DNA of 45,191 bases, taken from positions 1-45,191 of the forward strand of contig CAOKRT010000013.1 in NCBI GenBank assembly GCA_948471205.1. Reading direction: 5' to 3'. Positions 3 through 6,273 of this stretch are shown piece by piece. A program made the position numbers and the translations under genes. Source of the DNA: an uncultured Oscillospiraceae bacterium. GTDB taxonomy: Bacteria > Bacillota > Clostridia > Oscillospirales > Acutalibacteraceae. Position 1 is the stretch's first letter. Every line of letters begins with the position of its first letter. The notes beneath the pieces are model-generated. The model was not told the DNA's origin and ran no database searches. It saw nothing but the letters and a program-made list of their open reading frames with translations.

Positions 3-659
3 TTAAGCAAAGGCTTTTTTGTGAAAAAGGTTTGTGGTTTTATTGAAAAAGGCGGAGGTTCGGCAAGCGGTCAAAACTCGGGAAATCCTGAACCGATATG
101 GTATCCAAAAAATGGGGATGCCAAACGATTTTTAGGAAAACCGGGAGAAATGAAAGAAACTATTGATAAAAACGGAGAAAGGCGTTTAACTAAAATCGGT
201 AAAGACGGAAAGGCTGTTAAAGAACGACATTTTTCAAATCATAAAAGGCCTGATAAACACACAAATCCGCACGATCACGAAATTAATTGGAGCAATGGCT
301 ATCCTAATCCGCAGTCCCCTACAAATTATCCAAATGGGAATATACCCGAATTTAAATCATTGAAAGGAGTATATATGTATACTAAAAATGAACATATTCT
401 TGAATATCCTAATTATAATGACATAGATGATTTTAAGGAAAGTCTTATTTATGGTAAAGAAATTGAAATCAGATGGAAAGGAATTGATTTCACCATTGAA
501 TATGAGCAAGATAGAATCTTTTCAATTTGCGAAGCTTATAAACCCGAAACAGAAAAATCTTTTAAATCAATTGATAAATTACTCGAATTGAAATTAAATA
601 CCGGAGATGTTTTAAAAGATGTAGTTTTACAAGCAGAGATTATGTGGAGAAATATATGA
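3..659 (+). CDS. Partial polymorphic-toxin-like C-terminus running in frame into an immunity-like domain
   Basis: The frame is open to the left edge, so the 5' end lies outside the window; the GTG at 21 has no good ribosome site and is probably not a start. The first ~115 residues are rich in Gly, Pro, Asn and His, with a cluster RHFSNH...HTNPHDHEINW and then NYPNGNIPEFKS, which resembles the small toxin or processing modules at the ends of secreted or phage-derived polymorphic proteins. From residue ~119 the character changes to a compact acidic domain (GKEIEIRWKGIDFTIEY, then a helical end) like small immunity proteins. No stop codon separates the parts, and a Shine-Dalgarno site (AAAGGAG, 363-369) sits just before an internal ATG at 375. 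The barstar-like gene overlaps the end by 4 nt. The exact families were not identified; the toxin/immunity reading is inference. Confidence 0.6.
   Translation, partial: LSKGFFVKKVCGFIEKGGGSASGQNSGNPEPIWYPKNGDAKRFLGKPGEMKETIDKNGERRLTKIGKDGKAVKERHFSNHKRPDKHTNPHDHEINWSNGYPNPQSPTNYPNGNIPEFKSLKGVYMYTKNEHILEYPNYNDIDDFKESLIYGKEIEIRWKGIDFTIEYEQDRIFSICEAYKPETEKSFKSIDKLLELKLNTGDVLKDVVLQAEIMWRNI
375..659 (+). CDS. Possible separately translated immunity-like protein (internal start)
   Basis: This is an internal in-frame start inside the preceding open frame. AAAGGAG at 363-369 lies 5 nt before ATG 375, a much better initiation signal than anything upstream in view. The product would be 94 residues, acidic, with predicted beta strands around EIEIRWKGIDFTIEYEQ and a C-terminal helix, as in small cytoplasmic immunity proteins of polymorphic toxin loci. 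Its stop (657-659) overlaps the start of the barstar-like gene (ATG 656), which suggests translational coupling. It could equally be only the C-terminal half of one long protein. Confidence 0.5.
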   Translation: MYTKNEHILEYPNYNDIDDFKESLIYGKEIEIRWKGIDFTIEYEQDRIFSICEAYKPETEKSFKSIDKLLELKLNTGDVLKDVVLQAEIMWRNI

Positions 660-1066
660 ATACATTATACAAAATGACAACAGAAGAATTTGAAGAAAAG
701 AGAATACTTTATAAATTTAATGATGTAAAATATGTTGTTATGGACGGTAAAGGAATTGAAACCTACGAGCAATATTTTGATAAACTGTGGGATGTCTTTG
801 GATTTAGTGAAATACCTGAGGGTTGGAAAAAGGATTTTCATACAGAAGATGACTTTATGACGGAAATGGATGAATTGACAAAAGACAAGTATGTTTTCGT
901 TATTAAAAATTACAATGAATTTTTAGCTAACGATATTAAGGAGAAAGAAAAAATCGAAGATTATTATGAAAACTACTTGCTGCCATTCTGGGATGAAGAG
1001 GTTGAACGCGTAGTAGTTGAAGGAAAACGCAAGGATTTTGATATTTATCTGGTATCAAATGAATAA
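656..1066 (+). CDS. Barstar-like (barnase inhibitor family) protein
   Basis: A 136-residue protein from ATG 656, preceded by TGGAG at 645-649 and overlapping the previous stop by 4 nt (ATGA); the frame also contains a GTG at 644, but the ATG has the better spacing. The order of elements matches barstar: a first strand YVVMDG, the turn KGIETYEQYFDKLWDVFGF, then a Trp-containing loop, FMTEMDEL, the strand YVFVIKNY, a helical section and a last strand DIYLV. Barstar proteins bind and block secreted barnase-type ribonucleases in the cytoplasm. The upstream partial toxin module is not obviously barnase, so the cognate nuclease may be further upstream, lost, or belong to a competitor. The protein is strongly acidic, as expected. 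Confidence 0.6.
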   Translation: MNTLYKMTTEEFEEKRILYKFNDVKYVVMDGKGIETYEQYFDKLWDVFGFSEIPEGWKKDFHTEDDFMTEMDELTKDKYVFVIKNYNEFLANDIKEKEKIEDYYENYLLPFWDEEVERVVVEGKRKDFDIYLVSNE

Positions 1067-1758: not shown

Positions 1759-1785
1759 AAAAGGCACGGAAATCCGTGCCTTTTT
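1759..1785. terminator. Bidirectional intrinsic terminator
   Basis: The inverted repeat GGCACGGA / TCCGTGCC (1763-1770 / 1773-1780) is flanked by an A-run and a T-run. It serves the 95-aa gene on plus and the GTPase-NYN gene on minus. Confidence 0.85.
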
Positions 1786-1788
1786 ATA

Positions 1789-4374
1789 TCAGAATGTTTC
1801 GGAAATAATATTCCTGATGTCCTCTTCAGCCTGTTGAATTTCAAAAAGAAATTCTCTTGAAGAAACACGCAGAGCGCCGTTTCCCAAAATAATAAGCTGT
1901 TCCAGCGCATCTGAGGTTACAACCCGCACACGGTGTTTTTTTGCAAGCGTATGCGATGTTTTTTCAATATATAAATCGGCAGTTTCTGCCTGCTTTGTGT
2001 AAACGATACTGATATTATTGATTTTTTCAATCTCACGCATGCTGTGGTTTACTTTATACGCATCAAACACCAGAATAACTTCGCATTTTTTATAGCCCTG
2101 ATAGTTGCACAGAATATTAATCAGCGTGTTTCTGGCGCTTTCAATGCTGTCCTGCGCGATTTTTTTCAGACTGTCCCACGCAAAAATAACATTGTAGCCA
2201 TCTACAAGCAGATATTCCGTGCCGTCATAAGACGGTATATTTTTTCTTTTATACTTTTTATTATCTGTGCTTTCCGTAAAAGTAAAATGGTTTTGCATCG
2301 GTTGTTCCGAATGGCTTTTAATCGGACCATAGGTTTGTTCAAAAATATACATAAGCTCCTTATCAAGTGCAAAAAGATTTTCGGTATTTTTGCCGGAGGA
2401 AAGCGTTTGTTTTATGGAAAAATGTGTATATTCACTTTTAGGTGTGGATAATGCGCTTGGCAGATGCATACGGCTTTTTATTTCATTCCATTTCACCTGA
2501 TAGCCTGCCCCATGAGAACAGAAAACCGAATCACAGGGATTATCCGTATCGCCGTCACAGTCATAGCCGATTTCAGCTATGACTTCTTCTGTGTTATGAC
2601 ATGGTTCATAACCTTTCAGTGTGCACATAAGTTTCCCTGTCCCACGGGTGTACTGCATAAGCTCTTTGGAGTAGTTATACATTGTTGAAACAGGTGCAGA
2701 ACCGTTAATAATTGTACAGTCACCGTTTATTTCCGGCGGATTGAAAGTGCCGCACATTTTTTGAATATCAGCAATTGCTCTGCCGGTGTTTTCTGTTGGT
2801 ACTTCCAATGTAAATTCATATATCGGTTCAAGAAGAACAGACTTCGCACTGCGAAGTCCCTGTCTGACTGCTCTGTAGGTTGCCTGTCGGAAATCTCCGC
2901 CTTCGGTATGCTTATTATGTGCTTTGCCTGATGCAAGAATAATTTCCATGTCTGTAATAGGAGAACCTGTCAGAACCCCGATATGTGTTTTTTCATACAG
3001 ATGATTCAGTATCAGTCTTTGCCAGTTTTTGTCAAGTAAATCTTCTTTACATTCTGTTTTGAATACAAGTCCGCTGTTTCTTTTGGCAGGTTTCAGCAGC
3101 AGGTGAACTTCGGCATAATGTCTGAGCGGCTCAAAATGACCGATACCTTCCACCGTGTCTGCAATGGTTTCTTTATATATAATATTTCCTTTGCCGAAAA
3201 CTGCATGGATTCCGAATCGTTCTGAAATAATGGACTGAAGTATTTCAAGCTGCACATCGCCCATAAGCTGTATATGAATTTCGCTAAGCCGTTCATTCCA
3301 TATGATTTTTAGCTGCGGATCTTCATTTTCAAGAATTTTCAGCTTTTCCAGAGCTGTAAAGATGTCCGAATCATCAATAAGATTTAATTTATATGTCAAC
3401 AGCGGTGCAAGCATTGGCAGGCCGGTGTTTTTTTCAGCGCCAAGTCCGTCTCCGGGCAGTGTAAAGCTAATTCCCGTTACAGCACAGATTGTTCCTGGTT
3501 CTGCTGTTTCTGCTGCGGTAAACCTGTTTCCCGAATAAATGCGTATCTGATTAACCTTTTCGGAATGTTTGTTTTTGTCCGACTGCAGTATATCCTTTAC
3601 TTTAAGCACGCCGCCGGTTATTTTCATAAAGGTTAGCCGCTGTCCTTTTTCTTCGGAAATTTTATATACTTTGGCGGCAAATTCTTTTTTATAGTTCGGC
3701 ATTACAGTGTATTTATCAAGGCATTTCAGAAATGCATGGATGCCTGATAATTTCAGTGCGGAACCAAACATACACGGAAAAATTTTTCTGCTTTTGATTC
3801 TGCTTATAATATCTTCTGTCTTAATCGTTTCGTCTTCATAATAACGGTTCAAAAGCACTTCATCACATACGGCAATATTTTCAAAAAAGTCTTTTATATT
3901 GTCAGAACTGAAATCAATGCATCCGTCGCTGAATTTTGTTTTTAACTGACTGAGCACATTTTTCTTATCCGCACCGTCCAAATCCATTTTATTTATAAAA
4001 ATAAAGCAGGGAATATGATATTTGGAAAGCAGCTTCCAGAGTGTCAGTGTATGGCTTTGAATACCTTCGGCTGCACTGATAACCAAAACGGCATAATCCA
4101 GCACCTGTAATGTACGTTCTGTTTCGGCGGAGAAATCAATATGTCCCGGTGTGTCAAGCAGGGTGAATTCCGTGTTTTCATATTTTAATACGGCCTGTTT
4201 TGAAAAAATGGTTATTCCGCGGCTTCGTTCCAGTGAAAATGTATCCAAAAAGGAATTTTTATGGTCTACTCTTCCCAGTTTGTTTATATTTCCCGATTGA
4301 TATAATAATGCTTCTGAAAGTGTTGTTTTCCCCGAATCAACATGTGCCAGTATACCGATAACAATTTTTTTCAT
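1789..4374 (-). CDS. TetM/EF-G-type translational GTPase fused to a C-terminal YacP/Rae1-like NYN nuclease domain
   Basis: An 861-residue protein. Residues 1-~640 follow the Tet(M)/Tet(O) ribosomal protection and EF-G layout: G1 AHVDSGKTT (10-18), G2 RGIT (Thr55), G3 DTPGH (74-78), G4 NKMD (128-131), G5 GSALK (204-208), then beta-barrel, domain III/V and domain IV-like parts. A low-complexity linker (~640-720) leads to an NYN domain starting with YLLVDGYNVI (721 on), with acidic candidates Asp725, Asp771, Asp800 and Asp822. That domain matches YacP/Rae1, known in Bacillus subtilis as an endoribonuclease cutting mRNA in the ribosomal A site. Such GTPases enter the same site, so the fusion suggests a ribosome-directed nuclease (inference). 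ATG 4374 is preferred to GTG 4380. Tetracycline resistance should not be assumed. The gene is monocistronic with its own promoter and terminator. Confidence 0.88.
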   Translation of the reverse strand: MKKIVIGILAHVDSGKTTLSEALLYQSGNINKLGRVDHKNSFLDTFSLERSRGITIFSKQAVLKYENTEFTLLDTPGHIDFSAETERTLQVLDYAVLVISAAEGIQSHTLTLWKLLSKYHIPCFIFINKMDLDGADKKNVLSQLKTKFSDGCIDFSSDNIKDFFENIAVCDEVLLNRYYEDETIKTEDIISRIKSRKIFPCMFGSALKLSGIHAFLKCLDKYTVMPNYKKEFAAKVYKISEEKGQRLTFMKITGGVLKVKDILQSDKNKHSEKVNQIRIYSGNRFTAAETAEPGTICAVTGISFTLPGDGLGAEKNTGLPMLAPLLTYKLNLIDDSDIFTALEKLKILENEDPQLKIIWNERLSEIHIQLMGDVQLEILQSIISERFGIHAVFGKGNIIYKETIADTVEGIGHFEPLRHYAEVHLLLKPAKRNSGLVFKTECKEDLLDKNWQRLILNHLYEKTHIGVLTGSPITDMEIILASGKAHNKHTEGGDFRQATYRAVRQGLRSAKSVLLEPIYEFTLEVPTENTGRAIADIQKMCGTFNPPEINGDCTIINGSAPVSTMYNYSKELMQYTRGTGKLMCTLKGYEPCHNTEEVIAEIGYDCDGDTDNPCDSVFCSHGAGYQVKWNEIKSRMHLPSALSTPKSEYTHFSIKQTLSSGKNTENLFALDKELMYIFEQTYGPIKSHSEQPMQNHFTFTESTDNKKYKRKNIPSYDGTEYLLVDGYNVIFAWDSLKKIAQDSIESARNTLINILCNYQGYKKCEVILVFDAYKVNHSMREIEKINNISIVYTKQAETADLYIEKTSHTLAKKHRVRVVTSDALEQLIILGNGALRVSSREFLFEIQQAEEDIRNIISETF

Positions 4375-4404
4375 TTTCACACCACGCTTTAACTTATTTT
4401 CTAT

Positions 4405-4433
4405 ATGATACCATATAATCCGGTTCGTGTAAA
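4405..4433 (-). promoter_or_regulatory. Sigma-A-type promoter of the GTPase-NYN gene
   Basis: On minus, -35 TTTACA (4433-4428), a 17-nt spacer and -10 TATCAT (4410-4405). The 5' leader would be only about 25 nt, so there is no room for a tet(M)-type attenuating leader peptide. Confidence 0.6.
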
Positions 4434-4517
4434 TTGCCGCGGATTTATAATGGGCTGTTATCGTAATGATTCTGTTACAAAAGGCTGTATTAAAAAATCA
4501 ACTTTTTTAAGACAAAA

Positions 4518-4540
4518 AAAGGCAGGTGTAAACCTGCCTT
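4518..4540 (-). terminator. Intrinsic terminator of spoVAE
   Basis: The stem AAAGGCAGGT / ACCTGCCTTT is followed on the minus strand by seven T residues. It lies just after the spoVAE stop codon. Confidence 0.85.
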
Positions 4541-4550
4541 TCTGTTTGCT

Positions 4551-4904
4551 TTATTTATCCTTTGGTCTTGCAATAAGAGAAACAATAAGCCCTGAAAGAA
4601 CCGCTACGGTTACACCGCCGGCACATGCGGAAAGCCCGCCTGTAATGACGCCGATAAAGCCGTCTTTCTGAATGGCCTCTTTCACTCCGTTGGCAAGTGA
4701 GTTGCCGAACCCTGTAAGCGGAATGGTTGCGCCCGCACCTGCGAAATCCACAAGTTTATCGTACCAGCCGAAGGCGCCGAGCAGAACGCCCAGGCAAACG
4801 AAAAGTACAAGTATTCTTGCGGGAGTCATTTTTGTTAAATCAATCAGAAGCTGACCGACAACACAGATTAATCCGCCTATTAAAAAAGCATATAAAAAAA
4901 TCAT
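4551..4904 (-). CDS. spoVAE: Stage V sporulation protein AE
   Basis: A 117-residue integral membrane protein of the SpoVA complex, which moves Ca-dipicolinate across the inner forespore membrane. The family signature is clear: N-terminal FLIGGLICVVGQLLIDLT, the centre FAGAGATIPLTGFGNSLANG, and the C-terminal LSACAGGVTVAVLSGLIVS. The length is normal for the short SpoVAE form. In Bacilli and most Clostridia it directly follows spoVAC and spoVAD; here it follows a solo ABC ATPase on the minus strand, spoVAC lies 0.9 kb away in the other direction, and spoVAD is only a remnant at 1090-1441. Its ribosome site (AGGTGA) lies inside the 3' arm of a strong hairpin (4908-4946). Confidence 0.93.
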   Translation of the reverse strand: MIFLYAFLIGGLICVVGQLLIDLTKMTPARILVLFVCLGVLLGAFGWYDKLVDFAGAGATIPLTGFGNSLANGVKEAIQKDGFIGVITGGLSACAGGVTVAVLSGLIVSLIARPKDK

Positions 4905-5829: not shown

Positions 5830-6273
5830 ATGAGTATAAGCAAAGATGAATACAGCAAAATGGCAGATAAGGCAAGCCCGAATTCTCCTATTATATTAAA
5901 TTGTGTAAAAGCATTTATTTTCGGAGGTTTGATATGCACATTCGGACAGCTTCTTAATACCGTTTTTTTAAATGCAGGCTTAAATGAAAAAGAAATAAAA
6001 ACAGCAACGCCGTGTTTGATTATTATTATAACCGCAATTTTAACGGGTATCGGCGTGTTTGACAAAATTGCACGCCATGCAGGTGCAGGCACGATTGTTC
6101 CGATAACGGGTTTTGCAAATTCCGTTGTTTCGCCGGCGCTTGAATTCAAGCATGAAGGAATGGTTCTCGGCACTGCGGCACAGATGTTTTCCATTGCAGG
6201 TCCTGTAATTGTTTACGGTGTGGGAAGCTCGGTTTTATACGGAATCATTATATATATTTTCCATCTTTATTAA
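5830..6273 (+). CDS. spoVAC: Stage V sporulation protein AC
   Basis: A 147-residue membrane protein. Hallmarks: the N-terminal SPNSPIILNCVKAFIFGG segment, GGLICTFGQLL, a helix around LIIIITAILTGIGVFDKIA, the shared SpoVAC/AE motif HAGAGTIVPITGFANSV, and a hydrophobic C-terminus. Length is normal. SpoVAC acts in the inner forespore membrane as a mechanosensitive channel component for dipicolinate passage. TGAGGTG at 5813-5819 precedes ATG 5830. The gene stands alone, with no spoVAD or spoVAE behind it; the next gene is an SCP2-like protein with its own ribosome site. I could not identify a convincing sigma-G promoter, though the upstream region is very AT-rich. Confidence 0.93.
   Translation: MSISKDEYSKMADKASPNSPIILNCVKAFIFGGLICTFGQLLNTVFLNAGLNEKEIKTATPCLIIIITAILTGIGVFDKIARHAGAGTIVPITGFANSVVSPALEFKHEGMVLGTAAQMFSIAGPVIVYGVGSSVLYGIIIYIFHLY

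Follow-up and report, generated by a model that had tools for sequence, protein, structure and literature searches.

Rae1, the YacP protein of Bacillus subtilis, is described as an endoribonuclease of the ribosomal A site, with access that may rise when ribosomes stall, and cutting there is described as freeing the A site for transfer-messenger RNA (tmRNA) and SmpB (PMC6613710, PMC12320835). Tetracycline ribosomal protection (Tet) proteins and elongation factor G (EF-G) are reported to use overlapping ribosome sites that reach the A site (PMC8161019), and 'Tet' proteins bearing an NYN domain were reported in ten Clostridiales species by Atkinson 2015 (PMC4342817). Here we analyse a gene of this kind in a 45,191-nucleotide stretch of DNA from an uncultured Oscillospiraceae bacterium (contig CAOKRT010000013.1, GenBank assembly GCA_948471205.1), the whole of which is called the window. 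The gene, on the minus strand at 1789..4374, joins an EF-G/TetM-like GTPase to a YacP-type NYN nuclease, and the fusion is more likely to be a substitute for a free-standing, ribosome-linked cutter of mRNA than to serve in tetracycline resistance.

The architecture has been known since 2015, and the window gene is another member: in it, as in the proteins of Atkinson 2015, a Tet/EF-G-like GTPase is followed at the C-terminus by an NYN domain of the YacP kind. In the part that treats them, that paper files the fusions as Tet proteins and suggests resistance in one sentence (PMC4342817), whereas the present tests place the fusion outside the curated Tet proteins and point to replacement of Rae1. 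Among the papers listed by our literature searches no other treats the fusion, though one on how Rae1 is distributed (RNA Biology, 2018), outside the searched literature, may do so. The following were not met in the literature searched: that fused forms exclude free YacP, that the fused NYN domains form a single group, that these lack the C-terminal motif, the linker helix, and the placement apart from Tet proteins.

Organisation of the fused gene

The open reading frame (ORF) ends with TGA at 1789-1791 and starts either with ATG at 4374, giving 861 amino acids (aa), or with GTG at 4380, giving 863; residues are numbered here on the 861-aa form. On the plus strand, frame 1 of 1789-4374 is interrupted by many stops. 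The features of the gene are as follows.

1789..4374, minus strand: whole gene, EF-G/TetM-like GTPase, linker and YacP-type NYN nuclease (ORF, Pfam, PDB alignment, relatives)
3706..4365, minus strand: G domain, Pfam GTP_EFTU, with G1-G5 (173.7 bits)
3442..3681, minus strand: domain II, Pfam EF-G_D2 (29.4 bits)
3193..3348, minus strand: domain III, Pfam EFG_III (22.9 bits, below the cut-off of 27)
2842..3186, minus strand: domain IV, Pfam EFG_IV (61.9 bits)
2890..2928, minus strand: tip loop of domain IV, residues 483-495, GKAHNKHTEGGDF where Tet has GLYYSPVSTPADF (alignment)
2593..2838, minus strand: domain V, Pfam EFG_C (67.2 bits), ending at residue 594
2464..2592, minus strand: conserved C-terminal segment of the GTPase, residues 595-637 (...CSHGAG...MH), common to unfused relatives (alignments)
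2218..2463, minus strand: linker, residues 638-719, about 80 residues, with predicted local distance difference test (pLDDT) values below 50 at 646-670 and 686-712
2326..2364, minus strand: helical motif of the linker, residues 671-683, family consensus D-x-E-L-x-x-I-F-E-R-T-Y-G (conservation; helix in both models)
1804..2211, minus strand: NYN_YacP domain, beginning at about residue 720 (166.7 bits, Pfam cut-off 24.6)
2200-2202, 2062-2064, 1975-1977 and 1909-1911, minus strand: NYN acids D725, D771, D800 and D822 (alignment to Rae1)

The GTPase half has the marks of a translational GTPase, namely intact G1-G5, the G3 histidine and domains II-V (domain III scoring below the Pfam cut-off), and a single frame carries domains I-V followed by the C-terminal YacP-like NYN domain, as in the architecture of Atkinson 2015. 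When the full protein was modelled by AlphaFold2 on the family alignment, both halves were predicted to fold (mean pLDDT 83.1, predicted template modelling score 0.63) in a model that leaves their mutual placement unfixed; the C-terminal 222 residues gave a mean pLDDT of 81.2. A preliminary description of this DNA, made from its letters, had put the NYN domain 80 residues after the GTPase module. That distance is right when counted from residue 637 but not when counted from the end of EFG_C at residue 594.

Conservation of the fusion among relatives

Contigs of named genomes were scanned with the fused query and the best 80 of 590 loci were kept, a set from which the frequency of fusion of the GTPase is not measurable. 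These loci were chosen by two GTPase patterns and tblastn rank, so that the counts of NYN conservation among them are not circular; in the other alignment the NYN rows were chosen by a VDGYN-type pattern, and conservation of those letters is circular there. Set A2 comprised 62 of the 80 named loci plus the window.

GTPase and NYN domain lie in one unbroken frame in 79 of the 80 named loci, which excludes a chance joining or a chimeric assembly in the window. The exception, L196, was omitted because its frame is broken, and counts on named loci therefore refer to 79. Among the fused loci are those of Ruminococcus flavefaciens FD-1, Anaerovorax odorimutans, Fusibacter sp. 3D3 and Intestinimonas butyriciproducens, and the remainder come mostly from metagenome-assembled genomes. 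Variation in the G motifs is slight or absent (G3 histidine in 78/79, asparagine of NKxD in 76/79), and D725, D771, D800 and D822 are each present in 79/79, so that a dead nuclease could be rejected. The preliminary description had read intact G1-G5 motifs of a TetM/EF-G-type GTPase and a full NYN domain starting YLLVDGYN with conserved acids. Both readings held, the second also on the Pfam score of the domain; the architecture search that it proposed showed the fusion to recur, and the loss of catalytic acids in homologues, which it had named as grounds for refutation, was not seen in the 79 loci.

The NYN half compared with free Rae1/YacP

Searched by sequence against the PDB (up to E 1), the NYN half matched two distinct sequences only, both B. 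subtilis YacP (Rae1), at E 7.5e-26. Its acids D725, D771, D800 and D822 align with Rae1 D7, D53, D81 and D104, as counted on the alignment, and the predicted fold of the C-terminal model had three matches at E 0.001 or below, all of them Rae1 (E 1.0e-12 to 1.7e-11, TM-score 0.69-0.75 by target length). The homology to Bacillus YacP/Rae1 claimed in the preliminary description was thus borne out by sequence and by fold, and the NYN half shares with Rae1 (PDB 5mq8, 5mq9) the NYN fold and the four aspartates. Their relationship also bears on a different substrate, in which the GTPase would deliver the NYN domain to process or degrade tRNA or rRNA on the ribosome. NYN domains are proposed for tRNA and rRNA maturation in the account of Atkinson 2015 (PMC4342817), but Rae1, the closest characterised relative, is described as an mRNA cutter (PMC6613710, PMC12320835), and we judge this explanation quite improbable.

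The two proteins differ in that Rae1 is free, about 170 aa long and ends in a C-terminal W-R-R region, while the fused NYN domain is tethered to a GTPase and lacks that region (W164-R165-R166 of Rae1). For this comparison 17 of the 26 free YacP loci fetched from a draw of genomes across the phylum were used in the tree and in the counts of tails, the others having missed filters. In an unrooted tree of 60 NYN domains the 43 fused domains lie on one side of a branch and the 17 free ones on the other (support 100/99, and 200 of 200 bootstrap trees). From the conserved glycine to the end, free YacPs have 51-58 residues and the window protein about 28-29. The motif E-[KRD]-[WMI]-R-R occurs near the C-terminus of 14 of the 17 free YacPs and in none of 31 and none of 79 fused proteins in two counts, even though 16 of the 31 and 32 of the 79 keep at least 50 residues past the glycine. 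By a position count on one free YacP the second arginine of the motif is residue 166. Rae1 R166P is reported among suppressors of B. subtilis efp and classed as loss of function (PMC6613710), and PDB 5mq9 is, by its entry title, the Rae1 W164L mutant.

Within the linker, conservation is concentrated in the helix (E673 in 74/79, I677 in 77/79, G683 in 68/79), the rest being variable, and 52 linker residues have pLDDT below 50. The conserved helix and the absence of the C-terminal motif of free YacPs together suggest that the NYN domain has adapted to being joined. The GTPase and linker may have taken over a docking or activating role of the C-terminal region of Rae1.

Distribution of fused and free forms

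In the genome from which the window comes (98.9% complete) the fused copy is the single NYN match and there is no other YacP domain; a search for genomes without a separate yacP had been proposed in the preliminary description. Further genomes were drawn from the family, order, class and phylum; in the order and class draws a match was judged fused by frame length alone.

In the family draw the NYN domain was found in 19 of 150 genomes, in frames of at least 840 aa in 17 and at contig ends in two (780 and 142 aa). The GTPase (E 1e-100) was found in 31 of the 150, that is, in the 19 with NYN, in ten where it is complete and unfused and NYN is absent, and in two where it is cut by a contig end (G132, G039). 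In the order draw 105 of 247 genomes had NYN matches, 108 in all, and for 103 of these the frame is 820 aa or longer (one scores 20 bits, below the cut-off). The other five frames are of 465, 478 and 43 aa at contig ends and of 269 and 766 aa, the last two forming one broken frame; no intact free YacP was evident among these five shorter-frame matches. In the class draw 164 of 243 genomes had matches, and among the 150 rows counted the frame is 840 aa or longer in 79, 160-220 aa long in 65 and of intermediate length in 6.

In the phylum draw the NYN domain was found in 163 of 299 genomes (161 above the cut-off), 18 of them fused by the GTPase search as well. None of these 18 has a second NYN match, whereas 145 of the other 281 genomes have an NYN match. 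Were the two independent, the chance of this would be 2e-6 counted by genome and 1.5e-3 counted by nine families, figures in which kinship partly remains. A free YacP is present in each of the three genomes of this draw whose GTPase is unfused (3/3), and one genome without the fusion (G578) has two free copies.

Candidate genomes with both forms were rejected. In the order draw one had its two matches at two contig ends (G298), one had adjacent pieces of a broken frame (G340), and in one the second match scored 20 bits, below the cut-off (G322). The three candidates of the class draw had second matches of about 21 bits, below the cut-off and confined to profile positions 3-49. Across all draws, no sampled fused genome had a separate free YacP above the cut-off. 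The 21-bit second matches (L271, L272, L273) lie in frames of 163-165 aa in one genus and perhaps belong to another NYN or PIN family.

A swap can be seen inside that genus of the class draw, where five of six sampled genomes have the fusion without free YacP; the sixth, G712, has a free YacP of 168 aa and no such GTPase at E 1e-100. Such a swap makes replacement testable by complementation.

The GTPase half compared with Tet proteins and EF-G

There are grounds for taking the fusion to be a tetracycline ribosomal protection protein with the NYN domain as an extra resistance mechanism, as suggested in Atkinson 2015 (PMC4342817). The GTPase half aligns end to end with TetO (E 2.8e-74) and TetM (E 6.9e-68), sharing with them five domains and intact GTPase motifs, the best NCBIfam model is tet_protect (NF012153), and in RefSeq the fusion of Agathobacter rectalis bears the name of a TetM/TetW/TetO/TetS protein (that of Monoglobus is named a translation factor GTPase). 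Its score, however, is 427.1 bits against a curated cut-off of 775, and no mobile context was seen.

The tree of the GTPase also sets the fusion apart. Its 58 rows comprise 34 fused, 14 unfused, 6 Tet and 4 EF-G rows, the last two named from similarity and tip sequence, since they are unannotated viral-contig loci; several rows are of unusual composition, and three fused loci that had been sorted as unfused (L034, L039, L119) are not in the tree, nor is L121. Fused and unfused relatives form one group (support of 99 in the Shimodaira-Hasegawa-like approximate likelihood ratio test) and the Tet rows a separate one (100), with 29-30% identity between the fusion and the six Tet rows. Among the relatives the fused/unfused label has to change three times. 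Of the unfused rows twelve group together (95), and two others, from a Ligilactobacillus salivarius plasmid and a viral contig, nest among fused rows with support of 85 and 88, a position that points to loss of the NYN domain in these two.

The tip of domain IV differs as well. The window protein has GKAHNKHTEGGDF where all six Tet rows have GLYYSPVSTPADF, and the loop YYSPV occurs in 6/6 Tet rows and in no fused or unfused row shown. Pro509 of TetM is reported to lie in the drug-binding site and to contact C1054 (PMC8161019). In its column the window has Lys488, and lysine is found in 78/79 named loci, so that the tip is not that of a Tet drug site. The neighbouring His486 (77/79) shares its column with the tip histidine of the four EF-G rows, a column which we take to be that of EF-G His573/583. 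On these grounds, the score below the cut-off, the separate group and Lys488, a plain Tet protein was rejected and plain tetracycline protection by the fusion is unlikely, as the preliminary description had proposed; we hold the combined form, with NYN as an added resistance mechanism, to be improbable. RefSeq applies the TetM/TetW/TetO/TetS name to at least one fusion and to several unfused relatives, a point of concern to resistance surveys, and for the fusion the sequence evidence disagrees with it.

The resemblance to EF-G lies in the domain plan, the fold matches and the shared column of His486. When the full model was compared with the PDB, the 50 matches listed were all EF-G/EF-2-type chains by title or chain, and none was Tet(M/O). 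The fusion differs from EF-G in its low identity to the four EF-G rows (27-28%), its other tip residues and its nuclease tail. Much closer are the unfused relatives, such as that of L. salivarius pMP118, which fall in the same GTPase group with 43-52% identity and, in most rows, the tip HxKHTxGGDF; they differ in stopping at about 640-680 aa, without linker and NYN domain, and are annotated as 'translation factor GTPase family' or TetM-like. The gene on plasmid pMP118 of L. salivarius UCC118 (L256) adjoins rpsN (S14) and bears the RefSeq label of a TetM-type resistance protein. Three viral contigs (L204, L205, L233) carry a close unfused relative.

A proposed role on the ribosome

On balance we lean towards a chromosomal, housekeeping-type, ribosome-associated mRNA endonuclease, docked by its GTPase, that replaces free Rae1/YacP in many Clostridia. 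In its favour are two intact modules that are conserved together, the Rae1-like fold and acids, the single group of fused NYN domains, the lack of a separate free YacP above the cut-off in sampled fused genomes, the missing C-terminal motif and the conserved linker helix. The EF-G-like GTPase would dock at the factor site of the ribosome and so bring the tethered NYN domain to translating or stalled ribosomes. Factor site and decoding centre are less than 100 angstroms apart, and the length of the linker would permit the NYN domain to reach from one to the other. Domain IV would leave the decoding centre before the NYN domain acts, the message would presumably be cut at or near the A-site codon, and tmRNA would then clear the resulting non-stop ribosome; the window's genome has a tmRNA (147.3 bits, above the cut-off). 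Cutting may depend on GTP. A fuller version of the proposal, which we regard as tentative and rather doubtful, is a quality-control nuclease, gated by GTP and coupled to tmRNA, by which free Rae1 was displaced in much of Clostridia. Here the GTPase would sample ribosomes with an open A site, the linker helix and GTPase would do the work of the C-terminal anchor of Rae1, and with GTP hydrolysis the A site, once vacated, would pass to the NYN domain.

Several points weigh against these proposals. The function is dispensable, since at the thresholds applied both modules are absent from 119 of the 150 genomes in the family draw. The mutual exclusion of fused and free forms is partly phylogenetic, and reaches only about 1.5e-3 when counted by the nine families. 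The C-terminal motif of free YacPs is common but not universal, since the looser pattern [WMI][RK]R near the end, found in 14/17 free and 0/31 fused proteins, occurs in 5/79 fused ones, and the exact motif is missing from the end of the free YacP in G712. Domain IV and the NYN domain probably cannot share the A site, in which both domain IV and Rae1 are placed, and mutual exclusion would call for sequential action, also if GTP were used to enter stalled A sites as the preliminary description proposed. The case for the fusion is built on sequence and predicted structure. Lastly, Rae1 is described as acting without a GTPase (PMC6613710, PMC12320835) and ten genomes of the family draw have unfused GTPases without NYN, so that neither half needs the other in general.

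This last point is the strength of a further explanation, in which one chain carries two largely independent activities, an EF-G-like factor and a Rae1-type NYN domain that still enters the A site by itself, the fusion serving only to hold both close to ribosomes and GTP being no gate to cutting. Not only do unfused GTPases occur alone (the ten complete ones) and beside free YacP (3/3 in the phylum draw), but the linker is long and mostly of low model confidence. Against independence stand the conserved linker helix and the missing C-terminal motif, which suggest an adapted NYN domain, and we consider this explanation unlikely.

If the preferred reading of a GTPase-docked replacement for Rae1 is true, the fusion would serve many Clostridia as a nuclease of ribosome quality control. 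If, moreover, the nuclease is gated by the GTPase, mRNA cutting would be the means by which a translational GTPase brings a translation event to its end, and we know of no described translational GTPase that does so.

Genomic setting

The gene looks like a single housekeeping gene. Its surroundings in the window include the following features.

4405..4433, minus strand: promoter-like TTTACA-17-TATCAT, 31-59 bases before the ATG (sigma-70 scan)
1759..1784, minus strand: terminator-like hairpin directly past the gene (hairpin scan)
4516..4543, minus strand: terminator-like hairpin past the upstream gene (hairpin scan)
4551-4904, minus strand, and 5830-6273, plus strand: SpoVAC/SpoVAEB-type genes (Pfam, 128 and 141 bits), with an ABC transporter ATPase gene between them
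21-1066, plus strand: two ORFs of 212 and 140 aa, overlapping by 16 bases, with no Pfam match
1463-1750: third ORF without Pfam match

Only its position supports the promoter-like site, because sigma-70-like sites are no more frequent in the region than expected by chance (9 found, 8.6 expected). The leader of about 25 bases that it would give appears short for an attenuator of the tet(M) type, which bears on the antibiotic response considered in the preliminary description. Terminator-like hairpins are more frequent (8 found against 2.6 expected), and since one of them ends the upstream gene, the fusion gene is probably transcribed alone.

The preliminary description had also considered a phage defence factor, and a defence or growth-arrest factor that cuts messages on ribosomes once triggered would suit the patchy occurrence of the fusion in the family draw (19/150); other nucleases of ribosome-bound mRNA, of the RelE family, are described as toxins (PMC12320835). 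The setting speaks against it: PADLOC gave 0 families at E 0.01, the neighbours in the window are sporulation, transport and sugar genes, and no recurrent partner gene was found around the 80 named loci, where the largest clusters are shadow ORFs and otherwise a sensor kinase (12). Of 49 viral-contig loci none matches past residue 644 of the query, and none therefore in the NYN domain. We consider a defence role very improbable, and this part of the preliminary description was not upheld.

A phage-borne gene was rejected, only 2 of 113 matching phage records (MT835563, MT835514) covering at least 80% of the query. In MT835563 (L255), the one of the two that was read in detail, the fusion lies among genes that look like ordinary bacterial ones, as judged from ORFs, and because of these neighbours the stretch is probably bacterial DNA. 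A mobile resistance gene was likewise rejected: among 72,556 plasmid records, coverage of the query reaches 80% or more in two, which are records of 518 and 252 kb, one with secA.

Further neighbours in the window, identified by Pfam, are an SCP2 protein and a GH3 enzyme. Of the ORF pair at 21-1066, the 212-aa product resembles by eye the C-terminal part of a polymorphic toxin and the 140-aa product an immunity protein.

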